Assembly: GCA_023144005.1 (NCBI GenBank)
Contig: JAGLGN010000012.1
Span: 1-41,105, forward strand
Direction: 5' to 3'
DNA length: 41,105 bases
From: a bacterium
Lineage (GTDB): Bacteria; AUK180
Shown: positions 8,414-41,105 of the stretch, piece after piece
Layout of the letters: every line of letters begins with the position of its first letter
Position numbering within the stretch: the first letter of the stretch is position 1
Notes under the pieces: generated by a model
The model's input: only the letters and a program-made list of their open reading frames with translations
What the model was told of the DNA's origin: nothing
The model's database searches: none
Translations under genes and position numbers: made by a program

Positions 8414-8553
8414 ATCTATTTCATAAGGACAGCAACAATGGCTGATACGGGCACAAGTGTACAAGTGACACGCTTCGCACTTCGTACATCAAACCTCATA
8501 CCTCGTTCACGAGTGAACGATTGTCATCGTATTTATGAAATAGAACACTATAG
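8414..8553. mobile_element. Short MITE-family element with heptamers inside
   Basis: The ends CTATTTCATAAGGACAGCAACAATGG (left) and the right-end repeat ending GAACACTATA are inverted copies of the family terminal repeat. The interior is short and holds ACAAGTG units, CACTTCGTACATC heptamers and a 7-bp hairpin (CGTTCAC, GA, GTGAACG; 8504-8519) also found next to rnc. The left end begins 4 bp after the oxidoreductase stop codon. Confidence 0.7.
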
Positions 8554-12179: not shown

Positions 12180-13394
12180 TCAATCCCTCAGACATTCCGC
12201 CGGTTCCATTTTTGTAGTTTTATTCGCAGGGAAATAACTTGCGCCGGCTCCTGCGACAATACTAATCAAAAGGGAATGCAGATACGGCGCAAAGCTCCAT
12301 CGGGTTTTGATCACTCCCATGACCTTATACCCGATATCCACATCATCCGATCCCATCATAGCGGTCAGGTCGATCCCTTTAATACTGAAATACCAGATCG
12401 CAAGAGAGCCAAGGATCATACCCAGGAAAGCCCCCGCGATCCCTATAAATGTACCCTCAAGGACGAAGAGGTCGCGGACTTGGCTATCCGCCATGCCCAA
12501 GGCCTTCAGAGTTCCTATCTGCTTTCTTTTTTCAAATATCGAAAGCATCATTGTATTCGCGATCCCAACAAACGCCAGGATCATCACCAAAAAGACAAAG
12601 ACCAACGCAGAATTCCAGTCGGCATTGGCAAATGCTATAAAGGATTCACCCAGTTTTCGCCATCCTATGGCTTGAACTTCCTTGGGAAGGTCCGGCGCGA
12701 TGGCTTCAATATGCCTCGTCGTCTTCTTGGGACTATCGGTAAGAATGGCGATCTCCGTAGGGTCGCTGGTTCCCAGAAATATCGCGGCATCTGAAAGGGT
12801 GATATATACGGATGAATTATTGACCTCGGGGTCGGCGGCGTTAACAATACCGCCGATCAGAAATTCCCTTGAGTCTATCATACCGTCCATTGAGCGTACG
12901 GTCAAATATACATGATCATCCATCACCACATCAAGATCCGTTGCCAGTGACTTTCCGATCAATAATGCGCCTTCGCTCAACTCACCCTCGGTAACAAATT
13001 TTTCCAATTTGAAGACACTGCTATCGCTTTTCCCCGAGATACCCCATATCAGAACATTGATCGAATCGATGCCATTATCAACTTCACCTACTATCTTTAT
13101 GCGGGGAGTGAATCCCTGTATAAAATCTTTTTCTTTCAATATCTTGGATATAGAATCCCAGGAAGAGATAAAATTGCCCTTGCTGAAAGGTTTTTTCTCA
13201 TCATACTCAATATTTCTGATCTTTATATGCGAGGTAGTGAATTCGATAAGATTCTCAAAGGATTTCTCCCTTATCCCGCCGGCCGCGCCGTAGAACCACA
13301 TGTATAATCCGATACTGAATGTGATCAGAAGAAGCGTCAGAATTGTGCGTCTTTTATTGCGGATCAGGTTTTTAACGGCAAGTTTGAAGATCAA
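12180..13394 (-). CDS. FtsX/LolC-family ABC permease, type B
   Basis: This 404-residue permease has the same four-segment layout: NLIRNKRRTILTLLL at the N-terminus, a periplasmic domain, and FEKRKQIGTLKALGMADSQVRDLF ahead of the last segments. It is most like the gene at 15317 (shared SFENLIEFTTSHIKIRNIEYDEKKPFSKGNF pattern in shorter pieces), so these are type-B paralogues. It overlaps the upstream type-A gene by 4 bp (ATGA), implying coupled translation. It probably forms a heterodimer with a type-A partner. Confidence 0.85.
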   Translation of the reverse strand: MIFKLAVKNLIRNKRRTILTLLLITFSIGLYMWFYGAAGGIREKSFENLIEFTTSHIKIRNIEYDEKKPFSKGNFISSWDSISKILKEKDFIQGFTPRIKIVGEVDNGIDSINVLIWGISGKSDSSVFKLEKFVTEGELSEGALLIGKSLATDLDVVMDDHVYLTVRSMDGMIDSREFLIGGIVNAADPEVNNSSVYITLSDAAIFLGTSDPTEIAILTDSPKKTTRHIEAIAPDLPKEVQAIGWRKLGESFIAFANADWNSALVFVFLVMILAFVGIANTMMLSIFEKRKQIGTLKALGMADSQVRDLFVLEGTFIGIAGAFLGMILGSLAIWYFSIKGIDLTAMMGSDDVDIGYKVMGVIKTRWSFAPYLHSLLISIVAGAGASYFPANKTTKMEPAECLRD

Positions 13395-14593
13395 AGTTTT
13401 CTCAACGCCTCCGCTGCGGAAAGTTTCTTCGCGTATCTCGCGGGGAAATAGGCCGCGATCGAAGTTACGATTATTGCTAAAAACACGGTAATAAAAAGAA
13501 TTTCAATGCCGGTATAAGGCCTTATGACATAGGTCATTGGATAATCCATTCCCGATAAGGCGGATTCCATGTTTATTCCGACCTTGTTGACCCAGAGAGT
13601 GAGCACATATCCGGCGATCGCGCCGATAAGGCCGCCGAATGTACCTATGATTCCACCCTCCATAGTAAAGCTGCCCTGTATCTCGCCGTCGGTCATCCCA
13701 AGCGCCTTAAGGGTACCGATCTCGCTAAGCCGTTCAAAGATCGATTGCATCATGGTGTTAACAACAACAAAAGACGCGAGTGCGAGGATAAGTATTTCGA
13801 TAAAGAAAACAATCCCCTTGTAGCTCACTACCATATCCCAATAAGCACCGATCTGTTCCTTGGCGGTACGGGCGGTAAGTCCTTTGTCTAAGCGGGATGA
13901 CAATACCTCACTTACAGGCATCATATCGTCTCTATCTGTAAACACATATATCTCAGTAGAAGCTCCCTTCATTTTCAAAAGTTTTTTTGCATCCTTTTCA
14001 GCAATATAGAACACCCTTTCATCCATGGAAGCTACCTGCATTTGAATGAGGCCGTTCACCCTGAATTTCATACCGTTCAAGCCGCCTTCGGAGGTATTCG
14101 TAGCCAGCAAAAGTTCATCCCCTATCTGCGCGCCGATCTTCTGGGCAAGTTTCACTCCGATATAAAGCCCTTCGGGTGAAAATTCTCCTTCCGACAGATT
14201 ATTTTTTATATCAAGACAGGTTTTTTCCAGATCAACGCCGATTCCCATAGCGGTAACCGTTTTCGCGCCTCTTCCCAGAAGGATCCCGAAGCGAACGCGT
14301 TCCTCTACGGAAACGACTCCCTCTATTTTTCTTATCTCATCGATCAATTCCGCAGAATTATAGATGAGTTCGTCAACGGGAAGGAACTTTCCTCTTTCGA
14401 CATAATCTTCTGTAGTGACCTTAATGCTACCTGTCTGGTACTTTGTAAAATTACCCATCATCATGTCCAGAACGCCGTTCATATATCCCATGGAAAACAC
14501 GGATACGACCCCGGCGAAGAAGATTGCGAGTCCGGTCAGGAGTGAGCGCCTTCTATTACGGAAAACATTTCTGAATGCAAATTTAAGCAGCAT
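13391..14593 (-). CDS. FtsX/LolC-family ABC permease, type A'
   Basis: This 400-residue permease starts at MLLKFAFRNVFRNRRR. An upstream in-frame extension is possible, but AGGAGG lies 6 nt before the ATG at 14593. It has the type-A periplasmic signature (YQTGSIKVTTEDYVERGKF) and FERLSEIGTLKALGMTDGEIQGSF. Its ribosome binding site is held in a 9-bp hairpin (14594-14622), so translation may be restricted. Upstream of that lies the inverted-repeat element with the S23 gene, which separates it from its likely type-B partner at 15317. Confidence 0.85.
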   Translation of the reverse strand: MLLKFAFRNVFRNRRRSLLTGLAIFFAGVVSVFSMGYMNGVLDMMMGNFTKYQTGSIKVTTEDYVERGKFLPVDELIYNSAELIDEIRKIEGVVSVEERVRFGILLGRGAKTVTAMGIGVDLEKTCLDIKNNLSEGEFSPEGLYIGVKLAQKIGAQIGDELLLATNTSEGGLNGMKFRVNGLIQMQVASMDERVFYIAEKDAKKLLKMKGASTEIYVFTDRDDMMPVSEVLSSRLDKGLTARTAKEQIGAYWDMVVSYKGIVFFIEILILALASFVVVNTMMQSIFERLSEIGTLKALGMTDGEIQGSFTMEGGIIGTFGGLIGAIAGYVLTLWVNKVGINMESALSGMDYPMTYVIRPYTGIEILFITVFLAIIVTSIAAYFPARYAKKLSAAEALRKL

Positions 14594-14622
14594 AAAAACC
14601 TCCTGCTTCGCATGAGGTTTTT
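14594..14622 (-). promoter_or_regulatory. Hairpin hiding the ribosome binding site of permease A'
   Basis: In the mRNA AAAAACCTC pairs perfectly with GAGGTTTTT across an 11-nt loop. The second arm is the ribosome binding site and runs right up to the ATG, so an intact hairpin should hinder initiation. Translation from upstream or a bound factor could open it. Confidence 0.6.
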
Positions 14623-14631
14623 GGTAGCAAG

Positions 14632-15319
14632 TAGGAAGTACGATGTACGAAGTATAAACCCCCACATAATTCAAGCTTTATTAATATGTACGCAGACTTG
14701 AGTACATATCCTTCAGATTCAAAATCAATCTTGATAAAAGGATCTCTATAGTTTTTCATTATTTAACTCCATGATCTTCTTCTTTGTGTTTATAAGTAAC
14801 CCAAGAACATTCTGACAATGTTTTTTTATTTCAAGATATATATCATCATGAAGAATACCAAGCTCTTTACATAAATATAGCTGATAATCCAATTCTGAGC
14901 ATGATCCTATTGCAACTTTCAGAAAATATATGTATTCCTTTTCTGAGTGGCGCGCATCTCCCTCGATCAGATTAGATGGAATCGACACCGCAGCACGTCG
15001 CATTTGAGATGTCAATCCGAATTTTTCTTCTTCATGGAACTCTTTGGTAATCTTATATACGCCTATAGCAAGTTTATGTGATTCTTTAAAAACTTCCATA
15101 TCCTTTAGTTTCATCTCAATATATCTCTCTCTTCCTGATTCTCCCACATCACACTTCGTACATCGTACATCGTACTTCGTACGCCGTACTATATTTATCA
15201 CATCGCACTTCGTACCCTCATATTTCCTTCTTTCTTCACCTCGCACATCGTACCTCTTACCTTCTTATTTCCTTCCCCTCTCCACTTCGTACTTCGCACT
15301 TCGTACATCGTACTTCCTA
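14632..15319. mobile_element. S23 cassette 1: inverted-repeat element carrying a four-helix-bundle gene
   Basis: Arms 14632-14653 and 15298-15319 are perfect 22-nt inverted repeats. They start TAGGAAGTACGATG and are built from the 7-bp unit. The right arm begins with the TAG stop codon of the permease at 15317. Between them lie the S23 gene (14746-15114) and further heptamer arrays (15145-15190: CACATCA CACTTCG, then TACATCG twice, TACTTCG, TACGCCG; more at 15200-15260). The same plan occurs at 16566-17060. Confidence 0.7.
14746..15114 (-). CDS. S23-type four-helix-bundle protein (23S rRNA intervening-sequence family), cassette 1
   Basis: This 122-residue protein has the family pattern MEVFKESHKLAIGVYKITK, QMRRAAVSIPSNLIEGDAR and EYIYFLKVAIGSCSELDYQL. 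The family (PF05635-type) folds as a four-helix bundle and was first found in intervening sequences of 23S rRNA genes; its molecular role is not established. The longer open frame upstream runs through heptamer repeats (reading as repeated TKYDVR/TKCDV), so I start at the ATG at 15114 where the family begins. It lies between two permease genes of one operon, inside an inverted repeat, and looks like an insertion. Confidence 0.85.
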   Translation of the reverse strand: MKLKDMEVFKESHKLAIGVYKITKEFHEEEKFGLTSQMRRAAVSIPSNLIEGDARHSEKEYIYFLKVAIGSCSELDYQLYLCKELGILHDDIYLEIKKHCQNVLGLLINTKKKIMELNNEKL

Positions 15320-16537
15320 TTGGTTCGTGCGCAAACATTCCGCAGGCTGAAGCTTTGTGGTCTTCTTTGCAGGAATAAAGCTTGCAACAACACTTGCAAT
15401 CACGCAGCCCGTCATTGAGGTGACAATGCTCGCGATATCCCATTTGGCCTTAACGATCCCCATCACCTTATACCCGACATCCATACTGGCATCCCCTCCG
15501 GTAAAGGCAGAAATATCAAAGCCTTTAACTAGGAAATACCACATGAAGAGAGCACCCAGAATGAGACCGAAAATAGCGCCGAAGACGCCAACAAGAAAAC
15601 CCTCCCAGACGAATATTTTCTGGACCTCGCCATCTGTCATGCCAAGAGCCTTCATTGTCCCGATCTCCTTTTTCTTTTCAAGAACTGACATCAGCATGGT
15701 ATTAATGATGCCTACGAGCCCGATTATTGCGATAAACATGATAAAAATGCCCTGGCCCCTTTTCTTCATGGTTGTAATATTGAAAAAGGATTCTCCCAGC
15801 TTTCTCCAGCTCAATACGGCAAGGCCGGGTAATGCTTTTTCAAGCTCGGGTTGGTACTTCTTATATTTTTCAAAATCAACAGTTTTCATGGCTATTTCAG
15901 TAACGCCGGGCAACTCAATAAACCCTTGTAGCTCCCCGATATTCATGAACAATGTTGAGCTGTTAATAAGCGGATCAGGGGCATTTAAAATTCCACTGAC
16001 CTCTAGCTCAATGGAGTCTATCATGCCTTGGGCCGTTCTGAATGTAAAATATACAAGATCACCCGTATCCACTTTCATGTCCTTGGCAAGGTCGCGGCCA
16101 AGTATCACGCCTCCGGGGGTCAGAGATCCTTTTGATACAAAATCGTTCAGATTAAATACCTTGTGATCTTCCTGCGCGTCAATCCCATAAGCCATACATG
16201 GCTTTGAATCCAGTCCGTTATCAAGCTCGCCTCTCAAGGTGAGCCGTGTAGCAATACTTGTAACAAAGGGAAGTTTTTTCAATTTTTCAATAACCGCTTC
16301 GTATCCGGTAACAAAGTTGTCCTTCGAAAAAAGGATCTCCTCGTCAAAGTCAATCGTTCTGATCTTGAAATGGCCGGTCTCAAAATTTATAAGATTCTCC
16401 ACGGACATATCATCAAATCCTTTCAATACACCAGCCATCCACATATACATCCCCACAGCGAATGAAAGTACCGCGAATGTCAGAAAGGTTCTACGCTTGT
16501 ATCGAAGAATATTTTTCAATGCAAATTTAAAGAACAT
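15317..16537 (-). CDS. FtsX/LolC-family ABC permease, type B'
   Basis: This 406-residue permease has N-terminal NILRYKRRTFLTFAVL, a periplasmic domain, then LEKKKEIGTMKALGMTDGEVQKIF and three membrane segments. It is the type-B paralogue of the gene at 12180. GAGGAGG lies 7 nt before its start. Its TAG stop codon is the first three bases of the S23 cassette arm, so insertion took place at or very near the stop codon; the C-terminus CLRTNQ resembles CLRD of its paralogue and seems intact. Confidence 0.85.
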   Translation of the reverse strand: MFFKFALKNILRYKRRTFLTFAVLSFAVGMYMWMAGVLKGFDDMSVENLINFETGHFKIRTIDFDEEILFSKDNFVTGYEAVIEKLKKLPFVTSIATRLTLRGELDNGLDSKPCMAYGIDAQEDHKVFNLNDFVSKGSLTPGGVILGRDLAKDMKVDTGDLVYFTFRTAQGMIDSIELEVSGILNAPDPLINSSTLFMNIGELQGFIELPGVTEIAMKTVDFEKYKKYQPELEKALPGLAVLSWRKLGESFFNITTMKKRGQGIFIMFIAIIGLVGIINTMLMSVLEKKKEIGTMKALGMTDGEVQKIFVWEGFLVGVFGAIFGLILGALFMWYFLVKGFDISAFTGGDASMDVGYKVMGIVKAKWDIASIVTSMTGCVIASVVASFIPAKKTTKLQPAECLRTNQ

Positions 16538-16565
16538 TTTCGCCTCCTCTGCAGGTTGTGAGTCT

Positions 16566-17060
16566 GAAGTGTGAAGTCTGAAGTGTGAAGTAAGGGAGTT
16601 TAATATTATTAATAACTGCCCAACAATTGCATTTTATAAAGAGTAATCCATCATTCATTTCTTTCCTCCACTGCCTTTCTGGTACTTATGAGAAGATTCA
16701 TTGTTTCCTCACATAGATAATAAGCATTGTTTTTCTGTTCAGTATCTATATATCCCAGGTCATTGCATAGCAGATACTGATATCTTAATTCAGCACACGA
16801 ACCTATTGCCATTTTCAAGAAGTATCCATACTCCTTCTTCGAATATCTGGAATCTCCTTCAATTAAATTTGTGGTAATAGAAGTAGAAGATCTCCTCATC
16901 TGATTTAGCAGAGTAAATCGTTCATCATTTGGAAGATCTTTGGTAATCTTGTAAGTGTATAAAACTAATTCATGGGATTTTTTGAAAACTTCCATTTCCT
17001 CAATCTTCATTTCTCTCTCCTCTTCCCACTTGGCACCTCACACTTCACACCTCACACTTC
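16566..17060. mobile_element. S23 cassette 2: inverted heptamer arrays around a four-helix-bundle gene
   Basis: Arm 16566-16591 (starting GAAGTGTGAAGTCTGAAG) and arm 17035-17060 (ACCTCACACTTCACACC...) are 26-nt inverted repeats matching at about 22 positions, with most mismatches allowing G-U pairing in RNA. They enclose 443 nt with the S23 gene at 16651-17010. One end lies 7 bp after the ATPase stop codon, the other 28 bp before the next permease start. Confidence 0.65.
16651..17010 (-). CDS. S23-type four-helix-bundle protein, cassette 2
   Basis: This 119-residue paralogue of the cassette-1 protein has MEVFKKSHELVLYTYKITKDL, QMRRSSTSITTNLIEGDSR and EYGYFLKMAIGSCAELRYQ. GAGAGAG lies just upstream of the ATG. 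The two S23 proteins are clearly related but far from identical, so the cassettes are not a recent local duplication, or have diverged for long. The gene sits between the ATPase and first permease genes, inside an inverted repeat, and has no obvious link to export. Confidence 0.85.
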   Translation of the reverse strand: MKIEEMEVFKKSHELVLYTYKITKDLPNDERFTLLNQMRRSSTSITTNLIEGDSRYSKKEYGYFLKMAIGSCAELRYQYLLCNDLGYIDTEQKNNAYYLCEETMNLLISTRKAVEERNE

Positions 17061-17067
17061 TTATTGT

Positions 17068-17742
17068 CTACGATTCCACGATACGCCCGTCTCTCATTTT
17101 GATGACGCGCTTGGCATGCTTCATTATAACAGGGTCGTGCGTAGAAAAAAGGAATGTAACTTTCTCGATCTCATTCATCTTTCTCATGATATCAACTATC
17201 ACTTCACCTGTTTTTGAGTCAAGATTCGCCGTTGGCTCGTCCGCAAGGACCATCTTTGGCTTTTTTACGAGCGAGCGGGCTATAGAAACCCTCTGCTGCT
17301 GTCCGCCCGAGAGTTCCAATGGCATTCTTTTTTCCAGGCCCTGAAGCTCCACTTCCTCCAAGATAGCGAAGACCCTGTCCTTCATTTCTTTATGGGTGTG
17401 TTTGCCTAATAATTTCAGAGGCAGCTCAATATTTTCATAAACCGTCAGCACAGGGATCAGATTATATGTCTGAAATATAAATCCGAAATACTCCCTGCGC
17501 AAAAGAGCCAATTGCTTGGAGCTCTTACCCGTCAGATCTATTCCGTCTAAAATAACATTGCCACCATCCGATGAATCAATGCATCCTATTATATTCAAAA
17601 GAGTGGTCTTCCCTGAGCCGGAAGGACCGACGAGAGCAACAAATTCTCCCTGATCAACCTCCACGTCAATATCGTGTAACGCCTGGAAATCAACTTTGCC
17701 GGAATGGTAGATCTTATTTATTTTCTGCACATCCAATAGCAT
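17068..17742 (-). CDS. LolD/MacB-type ABC transporter ATPase
   Basis: This 224-residue ATPase has Walker A GPSGSGKTT (39-47), the Q-loop FIFQTYNLIPVLTVYENIELPL, signature LSGGQQQR, Walker B KMVLADEPTANLDS and the switch His in FLFSTHDP. Length and motifs fit the LolD/MacB branch, whose ATPases power FtsX-type permeases and do not move substrates through a channel. It is the only ATPase in the operon, so it probably serves both permease pairs. It follows the barrel gene by 9 bp. Confidence 0.9.
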   Translation of the reverse strand: MLLDVQKINKIYHSGKVDFQALHDIDVEVDQGEFVALVGPSGSGKTTLLNIIGCIDSSDGGNVILDGIDLTGKSSKQLALLRREYFGFIFQTYNLIPVLTVYENIELPLKLLGKHTHKEMKDRVFAILEEVELQGLEKRMPLELSGGQQQRVSIARSLVKKPKMVLADEPTANLDSKTGEVIVDIMRKMNEIEKVTFLFSTHDPVIMKHAKRVIKMRDGRIVES

Positions 17743-27242: not shown

Positions 27243-27428
27243 AAATGCGAGGCATTAAGAAGTGTGAAGTGTGAAGTGCAAAGTGAAAAGAATAAAACAA
27301 TATCCACACCTGCCTCTCTTTCATTATTCATTTTTCAATTCCCAACTTGTGCCTTATGCACTTGTCACTTGTGCACTGCGAAGCATAACCTTTGAACCTT
27401 TGAACGATTTTCTCCACGCGCGCTTTAA
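27243..27428. repeat. Heptamers and GGGTCC/CACTTGT-type repeats
   Basis: AGAAGTGTGAAGTGTGAAG (27259-27277) is a heptamer array. CACTTGTCACTTGTGCACTG and CGAAGCATAACCTTTGAAC (27361-27400) match the motif near 9895-9915. No gene is seen. Confidence 0.6.
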
Positions 27429-40692: not shown

Positions 40693-41105
40693 CCATACTT
40701 CGCAGTGGACCCAGGAACAAGTGTACAAGGAACAAGTAATGCTGAGCCTGCTCAGCAAGTCTGAAGTGTGAAGTGTAGAGTAGTGCTTCGCGGAGGATAG
40801 AGGCTAGAGGTTGGAGGTTAGTGAATAGGGAATATTCGAGAAAGATCACGCACGAGAGGAAACTGGATCCCACGGTCGCCAACTCCCTCTGGATGACTCT
40901 TTTCACTTCTTCATTCCTTTCACGTATCCGCTCACCGGGAGCCCGGCAGCACCGGGCGACCAACCCAAAAGAGTTTTGAACCGTTTAAGCGACATTGACA
41001 TTTTTAACGGCAGAAATGAATGGTGGCGTAGCCGAAAATATCCAATTGTCTGAGTGAGCGAAAGAGAGCGAGTTTTGGGATTTTAATGAGTGTATGCTTC
41101 GGTCC
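40693..41105. repeat. Repeat-rich terminal region
   Basis: TGGACCCAGGAACAAGTG (40702) and GTCTGAAGTGTGAAGTGTAGA (heptamers, about 40759-40779) are followed by the inverted 137-bp repeat (40861-40996). The final part (41040-41105) is the reverse complement of the family seen at 9614-9687 and 1-25, ending GAAGCATACACTCA on the other strand. An open frame on the minus strand (40646-40963) runs through repeats and is not called a gene. Confidence 0.7.
40861..40996 (-). repeat. Long dispersed repeat, copy 2
   Basis: Reverse complement of 313-449, with few substitutions and a 1-nt indel. The hairpin is kept (GCCCGG, 5-nt loop, CCGGGC), although the inner bases changed. Confidence 0.75.

Follow-up and report, generated by a model that had tools for sequence, protein, structure and literature searches.

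S23 genes between inverted arrays of seven-base repeats: a candidate class of small mobile cassette in bacterial operons

How does an S23 gene come to lie within a perfect inverted repeat at a stop codon of a protein-coding operon? S23 open reading frames between inverted repeats have been described in the 23S rRNA intervening sequences of Coxiella and Leptospira, which have been called a selfish element in the literature (PMC4990558). In the present study, a contig of 41,105 nt from a bacterium of the AUK180 lineage (the window, meaning this whole stretch) was analysed together with S23 genes from other genomes. The locus touches on two separate puzzles. First, bacterial genomes often carry S23 ('four helix bundle protein') genes, whose function is unassigned. 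Second, independent descriptions of dispersed heptamer repeats exist for several groups, with their source unstated. A tie between S23 genes and heptamers offers one testable answer to both. The best explanation, to which we assign a probability of roughly 0.7, is a widespread class of small mobile S23 cassette in which the heptamer arrays would serve as terminal recognition sites.

Two S23 cassettes in one transporter operon

The locus is an ABC transporter operon on the minus strand (ATPase, 17068-17742; permease A, 15317-16537; permease B, 13391-14593), which also holds a second A'/B' pair. Two S23 genes break up this operon, one in the gap between the ATPase and permease A and one in the gap between permeases A and B, in cassettes separated by 1.2 kb. 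The features are as follows.

14604-15319, minus strand: S23 cassette 1, whole divergent stretch from the junction alignment (flank alignments end at 15269 and 14603)
14746-15114, minus strand: S23 (23S_rRNA_IVP / four helix bundle) gene, a likely ORF from its translation, ATG start, 122 aa
15298-15319, minus strand: upstream (5') arm, starting on the permease A TAG stop (15317-15319)
14632-14653, plus strand: downstream (3') arm, matching the 5' arm in reverse complement at every position
15283-15319, minus strand: 5' heptamer array a, (GTACGAA/GTACGAT/GTGCGAA)n
15145-15190, minus strand: 5' heptamer array b, about six units, adjoining the S23 start
14623-14654, plus strand: 3' heptamer array, inverted orientation
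16651-17010, minus strand: second S23 gene, that of cassette 2, in the gap separating the ABC ATPase from permease A
17033-17061, minus strand: 5' heptamer array of cassette 2, (GTGTGAA/GTGTGAG)n, 7 nt past the ATPase stop
16560-16594, plus strand: 3' heptamer array of cassette 2, inverted

The protein encoded at 14746-15114 matches PF05635 (E=2.9e-35) and TIGR02436, 'four helix bundle protein' (E=3.8e-33), and belongs to this family by both scores, which exceed the curated cut-offs (121.1 bits against 33.8 and 114 bits against 24). S23 is the sole gene within cassette 1, which extends from the permease A stop codon to the ribosome-binding site of permease B. The protein of cassette 2 also matches both models, and a third S23 gene of the window's genome (G000), on contig C37, has a (GAATGAA)n array upstream.

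Exact complementarity confirmed the perfect arms described in the sequence-only reading (22 of 22 positions, 644 nt apart), as well as its placing of the 3' arm end 39 bp short of the next start (ATG at 14593). As a description of the arms, inverted heptamer arrays fit better than a single stem. The arms of cassette 1 are samples of a tandem (GTACGAA/T)n array and not a unique 22-mer, with the heptamer in the gene strand 5' of S23 and in reverse complement 3' of S23. Because the 22-mers belong to longer arrays, several arm pairings are possible, for example one of 30 nt at 87% with 15153-15182. The heptamer pattern has 11 matches in the window against 0.00 expected from shuffles, and an Rfam search of the window gave no match. 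Cassette 1 was described in the earlier reading, and cassette 2, with its own inverted heptamer arms, went unmentioned.

Arms, placement and orientation of S23 genes elsewhere

The arm plan was followed in 136 S23 genes (sampled genomes, 80 named genomes and viral contigs, 10 plasmid copies). An initial alignment of 27 S23 proteins proved too heterogeneous for scanning, and a narrower one, favouring the QMRRAAVSI subfamily, was used. Around the 46 S23 genes of genomes G000-G059, the self-match at lag 7 was 0.401 in the 150 bp upstream and 0.380 downstream, with lags 14 and 21 raised too and other lags or distant stretches at about 0.26-0.33. Against a background of about 0.25-0.33 at other lags and at distance, lag-7 values of 0.373 upstream and 0.368 downstream were obtained in the 80 named genomes, which belong to many phyla and include Patescibacteria, a cyanobacterium and a methanophagal archaeon MAG, and of 0.382 and 0.315 on 19 viral contigs; in phage records, no S23 was found. 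S23 cassettes occur across many bacterial phyla and in at least one archaeal MAG.

With an array called at 20 of 28 matches, arrays lie upstream of 51% of the elements, downstream of 44%, on either side of 64% and on both sides of 32%, leaving about a third with no array above the threshold. The controls gave 4.1% for distant windows and 0-1.5% for most other lags (10% for lag 8). Heptamer arrays are not exclusive to S23: at this threshold, they were called at 48% of S23 and at 18% of the remaining intergenic gaps of these loci. The two flanks of an element are inverted copies of each other (median local score 15, versus 8 for cross-element pairs), and the flank inverted repeat exceeds the 99th percentile of cross-element controls in 58% of the 136 elements. 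Moreover, inverted flanks scoring at least 16 accompany 56% of S23 genes, whereas among the remaining small ORFs of these loci the share is 6%. A link of such arms to S23 genes elsewhere is supported. Inverted arms were present at all 10 plasmid S23 genes from one search (nine clearly heptameric, L287 looser), and these cassettes sit between neighbouring genes, among others in nrd, cas6-cas4 and cmr2-cmr3 operons. In L287, on a plasmid of Picosynechococcus PCC 7003, S23 lies between cas10/cmr2 and cmr3, and the repeat is not clearly seven-base. As a separate observation, genome G014 (L290-L293) carries about eight divergent pairs of short S23-like ORFs of about 100 aa each, a fold-back arrangement of two paralogues that is repeated around the chromosome.

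The arrays of 92 elements align on a VGTNA core (G 0.79, T 0.72, A 0.64), which is weak (2.42 bits, versus 1.96, SD 0.06, after position permutation); the rest of the heptamer varies from element to element. Within this core, upstream arrays agree with reverse-complemented downstream arrays. Heptamer similarity climbs with S23 identity, from 3.15 of 7 at low identity to 4.25 at 60-70% and 5.65 above 70% (Mantel r=0.14, p=0.0005), and this rise shows the arms and the S23 gene travelling together; simple co-inheritance could also link S23 type and heptamer. The arrays are mostly four or five units long. A five-unit length matching a pentamer was considered on a first measure with mode 5 and was dropped; a stricter unit-wise measure shifted the mode to 4, followed by 5, so array length is not diagnostic of a pentamer. 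It is very improbable that the arrays act as translation stops in three frames, a unit of seven not being a multiple of three, which would protect the cassette wherever it was inserted. A stop triplet occurs in 59% of upstream heptamers and some arms provide an upstream stop codon, but this content is not above that expected from composition (0.59 versus 0.53, SD 0.05; p=0.13), and the GTACGAA of the window contains no stop triplet; the idea was rejected for its lack of excess over composition.

The 5' arm starts at a median of +1 nt from the upstream co-directional stop codon (quartiles -5.5 and +7.5, n=51), and some 5' arms provide the stop codon of the upstream gene; the insertion at a stop codon first noted for permease A, where TAG at 15317-15319 is the stop, is supported. 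Among cassettes with both neighbours close, 68 are co-oriented with both and 10 run against both (p=1e-11). Given the insertion at a stop codon and before a ribosome-binding site, in the direction of the operon, S23 would be expressed from the host operon while the host genes stay intact.

The sequence-only reading had also proposed excision from mRNA by cleavage of double-stranded RNA. Under such a scheme, the arms would pair in the polycistronic mRNA, RNase III would cut the stem and the S23 part would be removed, as from an rRNA intervening sequence. The plan does match that of rRNA intervening sequences, where an inverted repeat encloses an S23 ORF in its loop (PMC4990558), the strong co-orientation with operons would suit it, and the window transcript folds better than shuffles, to a modest degree (z=-3.07). 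However, arm mismatches show no excess of G.U-compatible ones (85 versus 96), the duplex energy falls under the first percentile of cross-element controls in just 18%, and excision is needless for keeping either gene intact, since the cassettes are intergenic. Arm RNA pairing as a selected feature was rejected for want of G.U asymmetry, and the proposal has found no support beyond the analogy; we consider it unlikely. The anatomy of the S23 cassette, its generality, its placement and its orientation are observed directly in these comparisons.

Filled, empty and exchanged junctions

The mobility of the S23 cassette was assessed in two unrelated lineages. In the window's lineage, the A/B junction of the congener G001 has flanks 96-98% identical to those of the window and a different S23 cassette in place, with GTGTGAA arms and a protein 50% identical to that of 14746-15114 and 77% identical to that of 16651-17010. 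The A/B junction of G004 holds an S23 of the GTGTGAA kind. Conservation at this place in all relatives, which would have spoken against the proposal, was seen only in part: the junction is occupied by S23 in G001 and G004, but in another version in G001, and related permease pairs of G003 and G005 have gaps of 8-22 bp. The S23 of cassette 2 is kept in G001 at 98% protein identity.

Further sites differ between G000 and G001, both draft assemblies in which gain versus loss is not polarised, and some apparent cassette gains may be deletions in the other genome. A 700-bp S23 stretch directly 3' of a stop codon in G001 (L074) corresponds to 21 bp in G000, a stretch of 633 bp (L080) corresponds to 81 bp, and the C37 cassette of G000 (490 bp) corresponds to 79 bp in G001. 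At L279/L268, the upstream array is kept in G000 and the gene is absent. One of the differing sites is a clean empty site.

The second lineage was compared on finished Nostoc plasmids. The traM junction is empty in C057 p057_A and UHCC 0926 pn2 and filled in C052 pC052_D and N. edaphicum pNe_5, where the traM stop codon marks the start of the (GGGAACA)n arms. On a second plasmid of C057, this junction carries a different heptamer pair. In ATCC 53789 pNsp_c, the arms are present and the gene is absent, a state that shows directly how orphan arrays can arise. N. edaphicum has a filled nrdB/nrdA junction, and Calothrix NIES-4105 an empty one. Cassettes are gained, lost or swapped at fixed junctions. 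As in transposable elements, empty and occupied alleles of one site and terminal inverted repeats were found. No target-site duplication was obvious by eye at the G000/G001 and Nostoc junctions, and no recombinase or transposase is encoded in the cassette, S23 being its only gene. The free-standing mobile cassette suggested from the window is well supported by these empty, filled, swapped and decayed sites.

Arrays also occur on their own. Three are in the window.

8474-8494, minus strand: orphan GTACGAA-type heptamers, no S23
27256-27291, plus strand: orphan (GTGTGAA)n array, no S23 gene
40792-40821, plus strand: orphan (GAGGTTA)n array; an S23 cassette of the congener (L073) has the same heptamer type

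GTACGAA-type heptamers without S23 are found at about 20 further places in G000, and in G006 many arrays share the heptamer of its own S23 (L090). Of the 26 genomes with S23, 16 have tandem RGTNANN arrays, compared with 4 of the 34 genomes lacking S23 (p=7.5e-5); these counts pool the pattern with its reversed form because the reversed-pattern control also matches heptamer arrays. Orphan arrays are mosaics of several heptamer types; the intergenic regions of G000 (contig C1, L105:4400-5150) are mosaics of the GTACGAR, CTTGTGC, GAGGCTA, GTGAATA and CTTCACA families. A dispersed hairpin repeat, GGGACAG(A/T)CGAACGCC...GGCGTACG(A/G)CATGTCCC, adjoins several orphan GTACGAR arrays (G000 C1, C2, C6 and others). 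Separately, TGCGAAGCA is 8- to 14-fold commoner than its reversed control in the congeners G000 and G001 and sometimes lies beside heptamer arrays and near contig ends (window copies at 14604-14612 and 27377-27385); as a candidate element end it was rejected, being enriched and adjoining some arrays, but inconsistently.

These orphans bear on a reading without mobility of the unit, in which small S23 genes would be acquired horizontally and slippage-prone intergenic repeats would be places around which recombination swaps genes. The arrays in 18% of other intergenic gaps, the mosaic composition of orphans and the site that keeps its array while S23 is absent would all fit. However, the arrays face each other across S23 in inverted orientation and agree within an element, array type follows S23 type, and arms and gene are jointly absent at one G000/G001 site and at a Nostoc junction, which makes this reading improbable.

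A possible mechanism and comparison with known systems

Herein, we propose how the mobile S23 cassette might work. It consists, over about 450-700 bp, of an upstream heptamer array, a short leader with a ribosome-binding site, an S23 gene about 115 codons long and a reverse-complement downstream array, and inserts at a gene's stop codon, ahead of the ribosome-binding site of the next gene, along transcription. The structures 2gsc and 2rld match S23, with five chains each, and the S23 protein of X. campestris is a pentamer (cited in PMC4990558); a ring protein whose own gene has repeated short sites at either end suggests end recognition. The S23 protein would recognise the heptamer arrays of its own element at both ends, with several short inverted sites per end, and the cassette would move as DNA by a host-supplied enzyme. 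Decay of the gene would leave the arrays behind as the dispersed heptamer repeats of many genomes.

As for that enzyme, a Y1 (HUH) transposase of the RAYT type might move the cassettes in trans, acting on single-stranded arms. Y1_Tnp (PF01797) was found in 26 of 26 genomes with S23 and 11 of 24 without (p=7e-6; Spearman 0.72), a correlation that spans 50 genomes only and is uncorrected for relatedness, while the control DDE_Tnp_1 was found in 12 of 26 and 12 of 24; G000 has five Y1 matches and no RVT_1 or DDE_Tnp_1 match. However, many Y1 genes carry different arms of their own (GGGACGGT...), not heptamers. A Y1 helper is consequently only a lead and, as a reading, not probable. RAYT-like Y1 genes of about 283 aa were observed at L300-L312, closely bracketed by inverted arms of their own that contain GGGACGGT. 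Two further candidates were dropped: Y1 transposase genes sharing the heptamer arms, since other arms were found, and a reverse transcriptase as helper, with RVT_1 in just 1 of 10 S23-bearing genomes.

The mobile S23 cassette seems to be a widespread kind of jumping cassette that has gone undescribed and may account for the seven-base repeats scattered through many bacterial genomes. A further step, to which we give slightly less than even odds, is that it represents a new kind of mobile element without its own recombinase, its element-specific inverted heptamers being read by an S23 pentamer, and that the repeats of Xanthomonas, cyanobacteria, Beggiatoaceae and Bacteroidetes are its scars. 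Annotation is affected as well, because cassettes interrupt cas, cmr, nrd and transporter operons.

Among known systems, RAYT/REP consists of Y1 transposase genes of the IS200/IS605 type that sit between inverted REPs, together with many REPs that are orphans. It shares with the S23 cassette a small gene between inverted arms and many orphan arm copies in the genome. Unlike RAYTs, S23 has no match to an HUH or other nuclease family, and the cassette encodes PF05635 only, with no Y1 HUH gene; its arms are heptamer arrays, not palindromes, and the Y1 genes of these genomes bear other arms than the S23 cassettes. Avd of diversity-generating retroelements, a pentamer, is distantly homologous to S23 (the second S23 protein matches bAvd at E=4.6e-05), but reverse transcriptase was absent from 9 of 10 S23-bearing genomes tested.

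Cyanobacterial STRRs are dispersed heptamer repeats. TAACTGA repeats have been reported in Beggiatoaceae, Cyanobacteria and Bacteroidetes (PMC4679880), and GGGAATC in Xanthomonas and GGGGA(C/T)T in Nostoc (PMC4692102). Such repeats resemble the present arrays in their seven-base, intergenic units, often about four in number, and in inverted pairs that are common in Xanthomonas, whereas the arrays herein are tied to S23 cassettes. One of these two papers found its heptamer repeats to have no link to mobile elements, and the main text of neither contains S23. The open-access literature searched gave no paper that connects S23 genes to heptamer repeats or to inverted arms outside rRNA.

There is likeness, too, with the rRNA intervening sequences, in which an S23 ORF also lies between inverted arms; a gene in the loop of an inverted repeat is found in the window and in S23 elements generally. 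In a motif check, no 23S motif was present near the 145 loci tested, and the window's cassettes sit between ABC transporter genes, not in a 23S rRNA gene. The present cassettes differ in occupying intercistronic gaps of protein operons, outside rRNA, and in having arms made of tandem heptamer arrays that vary between elements. S23 in an inverted repeat is already known from rRNA; the free-standing mobile class may deserve a name of its own.
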